This document shows, one piece after another, positions 14,027 through 15,892 of a stretch of 64,000 bases of DNA (positions within the stretch are counted from its first letter, which is position 1; each line of letters starts with the position of its first letter). Below the pieces are notes generated by a model, which ran no database searches, had not been told where the DNA came from, and worked only from the letters and a program-made list of their open reading frames with translations. The DNA is from Enterobacter oligotrophicus. Its GTDB lineage: Bacteria; Pseudomonadota; Gammaproteobacteria; Enterobacterales; Enterobacteriaceae. Where the stretch lies: contig NZ_AP019007.1 in the NCBI RefSeq assembly GCF_009176645.1, forward strand, positions 2,046,001-2,110,000, written 5' to 3'. The position numbers were made by a program, and so were the translations under genes.

Positions 14027-14590
14027 TCAGCGATTAAGGAAATTCGCCAGCAGGTCGTGCCCCTGCTCGCTGAGAATGCTTTCCGGGTGGAACTGCACCC
14101 CTTCGAGATCCCACTCGCGATGGCGGATGCCCATGATCTCCTGGGTGTCGCTCCAGGCGGTCACGTCAAAACAGGCAGGCAGGGTTGGCGGGTCAATCAC
14201 CAGAGAATGGTAGCGCGTCACGGTTAACGGGTTATTTAACCCAGTGAATACGCCCGTGCCGGTATGCGTAACCGGCGAGGTTTTACCGTGCATCACTTTG
14301 GCGGCACGCACGATGGTCGCACCAAAGACCTGCGCTATCGCCTGATGGCCCAGGCAGACACCCAGAATCGGCAGCTTGCCGGCAAAGTGTTGGATAACAT
14401 CGAGAGAAATGCCCGATTCCGACGGCGTACAGGGGCCTGGTGAAATCACAATTTTCTGCGGGGCCAGCATGTCAATGTCGGCCAGGCCGATCTCATCGTT
14501 GCGGCGGACAACCACCTCCGCACCCAGTTCACAAAAATACTGGTAAAGGTTCCAGGTGAAGGAATCGTAGTTATCTATCAGCAGGATCAT
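14027..14590 (-). CDS. pabA: Aminodeoxychorismate synthase glutamine amidotransferase subunit
   Basis: PabA releases ammonia from glutamine for PabB, making 4-amino-4-deoxychorismate for p-aminobenzoate and folate. It is a 187-residue class I amidotransferase. The triad is visible as Cys79 in GVCLGHQ and His168 with Glu170 in QFHPES. The N-terminal [15 protein letters not shown] is typical of the PabA/TrpG group. It follows the fic fusion gene by 30 bases and precedes argD, the same order as in E. coli, where transcription from fic reads into pabA. Confidence 0.96.
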
Positions 14591-14620
14591 GGCGGCTCCG
14601 GAAAAAAATGCCGCCCTATT

Positions 14621-15205
14621 CTACTCAGTTTCCCGCGCTTCGCTCACTACTTTGGCAAAGATGGCGTTCAGGGCCGTTAAATCTCCCATTGCCCCGCTCT
14701 GGTTAGCTACCGCCCAGTCGTCCGGGTCGATACCTTTCCAGCTCAGCTGATAGCCCGCATGGATCGCCAGCTGTTCAAAGAAGATCCGCTGGGCAATGCC
14801 ATTGCCGCTCATAAAAGGGTGCAGCATATTGATTTCACAGTAGTAATGGCTAACTTTGTCTGTGAACGCCTCTTTCTGAAGACCCACCAGATACTTGTCG
14901 CTTTCCATCGCCGCCATCAGTTCGTTACCCATCTTTTCGATGTACTCGAAATGACAAAAAGGAATGTTACCCTTAGAAATGTCGGCGGTGCGAAGCTCGC
15001 CAGCCCGCTTCATCTCTCTGCGGTATAAATGGCGGTGAATGAGACACAAATGGGGTAAACCAGGCGCAGACGGCCCCAGTTCCAGCGTCTCAATGTGGGG
15101 TTCTGAAGGACCATTACCTTTTTCAAGGAGGCAACTGGCCTGAAAATTGACGTTACGCTGCTGCTCCCAGAGACGGGATTTTTGCTTGTCGGTGAGTTTT
15201 TTCAC
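14621..15205 (-). CDS. fic: In-frame fusion of YhfG (FicA) antitoxin N-terminus to N-terminally shortened Fic protein
   Basis: A 194-residue protein from a GTG start at 15205, with GGAGG six bases upstream. Residues 1–28 (MKKLTDKQKSRLWEQQRN, then ..FQASCLLE) match the start of E. coli YhfG, the partner antitoxin of Fic, as I remember it. From about residue 40 (ETLELGPSAPGLPHL) to the end it matches Fic from about its residue 46. So the YhfG C-terminus, the intergenic junction and the first Fic helix are absent. The antitoxin inhibitory signature (S/T)xxxE(G/N) is kept in part as Ser24–Glu28, followed by Lys instead of Gly. The Fic active-site motif is HPFMSGNGIAQR (residues 129–140): His and GNG are present, the usual acidic residue is Ser and the usual Arg after GNG is Ile. 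The flap region FCHFEYIEK remains. It may be a deletion remnant or a self-inhibited single-chain Fic; activity is unknown. Confidence 0.8.
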   Translation of the reverse strand: MKKLTDKQKSRLWEQQRNVNFQASCLLEKGNGPSEPHIETLELGPSAPGLPHLCLIHRHLYRREMKRAGELRTADISKGNIPFCHFEYIEKMGNELMAAMESDKYLVGLQKEAFTDKVSHYYCEINMLHPFMSGNGIAQRIFFEQLAIHAGYQLSWKGIDPDDWAVANQSGAMGDLTALNAIFAKVVSEARETE

Positions 15206-15277
15206 TTAACGCCTCCCTGAATGTCCGTTTGCCACAAGTATAAGCAGCAAAACGCGCTTTCGCAGGGAGGACGAAAG

Positions 15278-15302
15278 AACACGAGCGAGATGGGCCCGTG
15301 TT
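15278..15302 (-). terminator. Possible ppiA terminator
   Basis: An imperfect 9-base stem (AACACGGGC with GCTCGTGTT on the minus strand, one G·T pair) lies just after the ppiA stop. The downstream tract is CTTTC rather than a clean T run, so it is a weak candidate. Confidence 0.35.
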
Positions 15303-15310
15303 AATGGTAA

Positions 15311-15892
<582 letters not shown>

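Follow-up and report, generated by a model that had tools for sequence, protein, structure and literature searches.

An antitoxin–Fic fusion at the ppiA–pabA locus of Enterobacter oligotrophicus and its relatives

The closest described relative of the gene reported here is the class I Fic pair EcFicT/EcFicA of Escherichia coli (PDB 5JFF/5JFZ; PMC5033356), encoded by yhfG and fic between ppiA and pabA (PMC5033356); yhfG is likewise handled as a separate antitoxin gene in other reports (PMC5664417; PMC2701414). Here we describe a gene of Enterobacter oligotrophicus, lying at 14621..15205 on the minus strand of a 64,000-nucleotide stretch (contig NZ_AP019007.1, positions 2,046,001 to 2,110,000; hereafter, the window), in which residues 1–28 of the antitoxin YhfG (FicA) are joined in frame to a Fic protein devoid of its first 43 residues. 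The fused gene, flanked by ppiA and pabA, shares with the E. coli pair both protein families, the locus, Ser24 and Glu28 of the antitoxin and the catalytic His and R2 of Fic, and its product is 60% identical to EcFicT across 154 aligned residues. EcFicT and EcFicA, however, are two proteins endowed with a DPY lid, R0 and Tyr83, whereas the fused chain lacks Fic 1–43, YhfG 29–55, R0 and Tyr83. To our knowledge, E. coli Fic, the founder of the family, has no known activity, and its function has been obscure since the 1980s.

Within the EcFicT-like proteins, Stanger et al. (2016; PMC5033356) recognized a "subgroup 2" of Enterobacter FicT sequences with a distinctive N-terminus slightly shorter than that of EcFicT, a five-residue deletion, no DPY and an R0 that is not Arg. 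It seems that this subgroup corresponds to the fused proteins of the kind encoded in the window (type A), since the features given in that text fit them; there, however, the N-terminus is called a sequence variant, whereas our results identify it as the antitoxin. The S4 legend of the same paper places an ecFicA homologue upstream of every ecFicT, E. albertii excepted, the word "fusion" is absent from its main text, "fused" appears there once, for tags, and in the parts covered here the antitoxin identity of the N-terminus is not stated. Among the open-licence PMC papers listed in literature searches (10–20 per listing), none describes a yhfG–fic fusion in its title or at the start of its abstract.

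Antitoxin and Fic sequences also share a chain in Bep3/1, Bep3/2 and Bep4 of Bartonella, where an antitoxin sequence is N-terminally fused to the Fic domain; these proteins, however, are secreted, host-targeted effectors (PMC8401265). Unlike them, the fused yhfG–fic gene occupies a chromosomal E. coli-type locus, the Fic head is replaced and no free antitoxin remains. Fic-1/AntF of Pseudomonas 2P24 (PDB 8WT0) differs in having two genes and a canonical motif, and GyrB is AMPylated (modified with adenosine monophosphate, AMP) when Fic is free (PMC13327609).

The reading frame in the window comprises 194 codons and a stop, with a GTG start and no internal stop, and a ribosome binding site, GGGAGG, can be read at 15212..15217, six bases 5' of the start codon. 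Pfam YhfG (PF10832) matches residues 2–28 (profile positions 1–27 of 54; 40.8 bits against a cut-off of 22.6) and Pfam Fic (PF02661) matches residues 52–146 (48.8 bits against 24). The NCBIfam model of E. coli-type Fic (NF007672) aligns residues 38–194 with its positions 44–200 of 200 at 250.7 bits, above the cut-off of 181, while the NCBIfam YhfG family aligns residues 1–28 with positions 1–28 of 55 at 56.1 bits; its cut-off of 77 is set for the whole protein, and a half-length match is expected to fall short of it. In a PDB search, the two parts match both chains of one complex, that of EcFicT and EcFicA (5jff/5jfz), which together with the profile matches places the fusion far beyond chance. 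A sequence-only reading of the window had proposed precisely this arrangement, namely a GTG-started frame with a good ribosome site, a YhfG N-terminus running into a headless Fic, and the loss of the first Fic helix and the YhfG tail, and all of it is borne out.

The antitoxin part (15122..15205) contains a predicted helix at residues 6–27 and bears the inhibition motif, with the Ser24 codon at 15134..15136 and that of the Glu28 carboxylate at 15122..15124. A linker of nine residues (29–37; 15095..15121) leads to the Fic part (residues 38–194, equivalent to EcFicT 44–200; 14624..15094), from which the DPY lid and helix 1 are gone. The flap region that forms the target dock (residues 70–83; 14957..14998) has Ser77 in the place of EcFicT Tyr83 and is modelled with low confidence. 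The FIC motif, HPFMSGNGIAQR (residues 129–140; 14786..14821), retains His129 and Arg140 (R2), with Met132 at R0, Ser133 at the Mg site and Ile137 at R1. A search of the source genome revealed no further copy of yhfG or fic, the sole extra match being insignificant (E 0.55). The deletion that had been proposed as the origin of the gene is supported in part: measured against the distance between the start of yhfG and the end of fic in two sister loci (L034 and L035), the fused gene is the shorter by about 175 bases, but no source for its linker was found on either strand of yhfG or fic.

The same junction is widespread in the genus group, as the survey of relatives called for by the sequence-only reading makes plain. 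Among 61 genomes, one per species, 60 gave a match: 32 carry the fused gene, 28 separate yhfG and fic, and one, G051 (93% complete), neither, the locus there being either dispensable or in an assembly gap. YhfG is full-length in the 28 genomes with separate genes and its match stops at profile position 27 in 32, which are exactly those with fused genes. All 32 fused genes encode 194 amino acids and adjoin ppiA, and 31 of them pabA; none of these genomes has a second YhfG match with E ≤ 0.01. The possibility that this N-terminus simply belongs to a native Fic family lacking a separate yhfG holds true inside the fused genomes and fails among their sister species, where yhfG and fic both persist as separate genes; the fusion is therefore the derived state. 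It is an old, clade-wide gene, and a deletion or assembly error confined to a single genome is ruled out by the same fusion in 32 species.

In a tree of the flanking pabA and ppiA genes, all 32 fused loci fall within one 36-species clade (support 100/99) in which four separate-gene species are interspersed, a distribution that fits one old fusion in the genus group with some retention or replacement. These four species (L034, L035, L057 and L058) may have retained the separate genes or regained them. Records of Lelliottia, Leclercia, Huaxiibacter and Silvania are found among the separate-gene loci of the group, and fused loci have Fic DNA identical to that of records titled, for example, Enterobacter cloacae, E. 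hormaechei, E. asburiae and E. mori and, in one case, Lelliottia nimipressuralis. When residues 1–60 served as the query, 48 of 51 candidate protein clusters were recovered, and 41 of these carry both the PF10832 and the PF02661 annotation. Two clusters of fused proteins, P0002 and P0007 (36 and 10 member sequences), have the C-terminus replaced within or shortly past the FIC motif and are likely disrupted alleles in some strains.

Selection was estimated on 32 type A, 28 separate and 12 type B genes (type B being introduced below). The codon-model ratio of nonsynonymous to synonymous substitution (omega) of the fused gene is 0.122 as a whole, 0.195 in the YhfG part and 0.109 in the Fic part, as compared with 0.068 and 0.052 in the separate genes. 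The fused gene is under purifying selection, about twofold relaxed with respect to the separate genes and far from neutral. The linker is less constrained, with a median dN/dS of 0.25 by the Nei–Gojobori method (NG86); its codon-model omega over nine codons stayed at the start value of 1.000 and was not used.

Fusions of yhfG and fic with different linkers were found in six further genera. Sampling comprised a family search of 392 genomes, 146 of which matched at E ≤ 1e-30, together with searches of three genera (6, 7 and 12 genomes). A script classed 180 loci as 70 fused and 110 separate; two entries from one genome (L079 and L164), a broken type B gene scripted as separate, were dropped, which left 178 loci and 149 distinct ones, 53 fused and 96 separate. 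Type B comprises 17 intact genes in three genera (all 12, 3 of 6, and 2 of 7 genomes, the last with one broken gene besides) and has a different linker, Asp at position 28 and, in nearly all members, the motif HPFFVGSGRAQR. The broken gene (L164/L079; genome G449), of the genus here numbered g42, has an internal TAG, and sister species hold intact alleles. Type C was found in one genome, and type D in one genome and in clusters P0044 and P0046. Type E (L155, genome G230) occurs in a single genome, where Ser replaces the catalytic His and Thr replaces Glu28, and looks degenerate or repurposed.

The protein tree included 83 of the 149 loci, the DNA tree 82 (L155 was left out) and the flank tree all of them. 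In the Fic-domain protein tree, type B joins the separate genes of genus g66 (99/97), type C those of g142 (99/96), and type A stands next to L089 (89/72); in the DNA tree, type A clusters with L089, L091 and the separate genes found in its own group (100/99), its exact sister being weakly supported (24/11). Approximately unbiased (AU) tests on DNA reject a single clade for A+B (p 0.00012), A+C (0.0008), B+C (0.00018) and A+B+C+D (4.8e-9), and those on protein are weaker (A+B 0.075, not rejected; A+C 0.030; B+C 0.0055; B+D 0.28); such tests assume groups named before the tree, whereas ours were defined by linker type and named once the protein tree was known. The YhfG parts agree with the trees, type B and g66 YhfG sharing RSRSFQAS, and type C and two of three g142 YhfG sharing QKARLYQ. 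Because the DNA trees reject one common origin, at least three independent fusion events are likely, types D and E being unplaced. Separate g66 genes are placed inside type B in the DNA tree, and type B may therefore include reversion or replacement. In genus g42 (7 species; L076, L078, L148, L125, L132 and L133), type A (in L076), type B and separate genes all occupy one locus; since the flanks are native, fused alleles probably moved between genera by replacement.

The distinct sequences (33 type A, 17 type B, and types C, D and E, against 96 separate; EcFicT numbering for Fic) reveal which residues stay after fusion and which tend to leave with the lid. All 33 type A and all 17 type B sequences keep the catalytic His135, as do types C and D, whereas it is replaced in type E; R2 is retained in all fusion types. 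Ser24 of YhfG is invariant in 53/53 fused and 96/96 separate sequences. Position 28 is Glu in 33/33 type A, Asp in 17/17 type B and in type C, Glu in type D and Thr in type E, as compared with 91 Glu, 3 Asp and 2 Gln in separate YhfG. On the other side, Arg at R0 (position 138) is universal among the separate genes (96/96) and persists in types D and E, but it is lost in every type A (0/33) and type B (0/17) sequence and in type C, and the flap Tyr83, present in 89 of the 96, is absent from all 53 fused proteins. Within type A, the R0 and Mg motif positions vary, and both the acidic residue (D/E) of the FIC motif and R1 are missing in 33/33.

According to Stanger et al., the target dock is covered by a lid, the DPY segment of the Fic N-terminus, which contacts R0 as well as the residues that precede the flap (PMC5033356). 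The fusion removes that lid, and with it go R0 in types A to C and Tyr83 in all types; we infer that the loss of Tyr83 was caused by that of the lid. With only four independent contrasts, a sign test of the association between lid and R0 cannot reach 0.05, and the joint loss of lid, R0 and Tyr83 is accordingly a pattern rather than a significant result.

With respect to the recognized classes, the fused protein departs from the class I FicTA type, since no separate gene carries the inhibition helix in the 32 fused genomes and the N-terminal DPY lid is missing with Fic 1–43. Both sequence and model place the helix N-terminal to the Fic core in the same chain, as in class II, which includes FICD, SoFic and the C. 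difficile Fic 0569, and AlphaFold models align with such proteins across the whole span; the class II-like layout suggested by the sequence-only reading stands, as a model. Glu28 and R2, the partners of the class II helix salt bridge, are invariant in type A. Class II proteins differ, however, in the motif [S/T]xxxE[G/N]: Ser24 and Glu28 are retained in all 33 type A proteins, as had been noted for the window, yet the residue that follows is Lys (32, the protein of the window among them) or Glu (1). The canonical AMP-transferase motif HxFx[D/E]GNGRxxR is likewise absent from type A, and the layout is secondary, arising from a class I pair. The protein would be class II-like by layout and class I by descent, illustrating a route from one architecture to the other.

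A class I Fic–antitoxin complex has been shown to remove AMP from GyrB in a reaction that requires Fic His135 and antitoxin Glu28, and that is left intact by alanine at E139, R143 or R146 (mLife 2026; PMC13327609). Type A retains the His135/Glu28 pair and lacks two of those three residues. Because the antitoxin-bound complex is a deAMPylase and type A keeps both the His and Glu28, we infer by analogy that the single chain, with its antitoxin helix predicted to lie in its own active site, would be a permanently antitoxin-bound eraser of the deAMPylase type, a reading to which we give an even chance. The Ser24/Glu28 helix would be held in place, with Glu28 activating a water molecule and the leaving hydroxyl receiving a proton from His129, the mechanism proposed for EfFIC and FICD; with the DPY lid and Tyr83 gone (in types A to C, R0 as well), the target dock would stand open, and the enzyme would strip a nucleotide tag from other proteins instead of adding it. 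FICD is itself a deAMPylase dependent on the Glu of its inhibition helix (PMC6408439). Were the antitoxin purely inhibitory, a clade-wide, repeated and selected fusion would be hard to explain: such a recurrent union of inhibitor and enzyme amounts to an experiment by evolution, and an enzyme locked throughout a clade would be useless if its inhibitor merely switched it off.

Three points weigh on the other side. DeAMPylation by EfFIC requires the acidic motif residue (PMC6408439), which is missing from type A; in type B, position 28 is Asp and R1 is retained; and the fused protein has no known substrate. It is a tentative extension, and one we would not bet on, that enterobacteria repeatedly hard-wired the Fic pair into a one-chain eraser because the antitoxin-bound form is the working state of the EcFicT-like family; in that view, E. 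coli Fic would be a dedicated demodification enzyme, with YhfG as a catalytic subunit. In this regard, the fused gene supplies a one-chain protein for assay.

It seems rather improbable that the chain is instead a class II-like writer, in which the tethered helix would be a switch that swings aside and a group would be transferred from a non-ATP substrate, a chemistry suggested by Stanger et al. for the EcFicT-like proteins. The His, the anion-binding glycines and R2 are intact, and the replacements of R1 and the Mg residue parallel those in EcFicT, a protein argued to have a new substrate pocket (PMC5033356). However, type A has lost several residues of that pocket (A36 and T40 fall in the lost head, and F71 is Met in 30/33), and no mechanism to release the helix is visible. 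An inhibitory carboxylate in cis, the replacement of R0 and the Mg residue together with a hydrophobic R1 in type A, and a constraint weaker than in the separate genes would suit a permanently inhibited pseudo-enzyme retained as a binding or scaffold protein; we consider this unlikely, given that the His and R2 are invariant in types A and B (50/50) despite the variation at R0 and the Mg site within type A. Single-chain toxin–antitoxin sensors do exist, one of them from Enterobacter chengduensis, but a CapRel-type sensor, whose antitoxin helix would be pulled off by a phage or stress ligand to free a toxic Fic, is very hard to reconcile with a chromosomal ppiA–pabA locus common to the separate genes, a clade-like spread within the genus group and a type A motif not competent for AMPylation. 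Finally, an assembly error or a gene in decay after a deletion, although an omega above that of the separate genes, some broken alleles and the degenerate look of type E might suggest it, is scarcely credible for 194 codons kept open with an identical junction and length in 32 species at an omega of 0.12, with both domains in 41 of 48 protein clusters, and the dead gene that had been offered as an alternative reading of the window can be set aside.

Among minor observations, an Rfam scan of the window at gathering cut-offs gave no matches, and a consensus scan of 14500–15400 gave no sigma-70 promoter. The ribosome binding site GGGAGG recurs in all type A genes but one (32 of 33), the exception, L017, having GGGGGG. 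Cluster P0043 represents another fusion, of 195 amino acids, in which inspection by eye reveals a different linker, Asp28, a retained R0 and Thr at the position of the flap Tyr.
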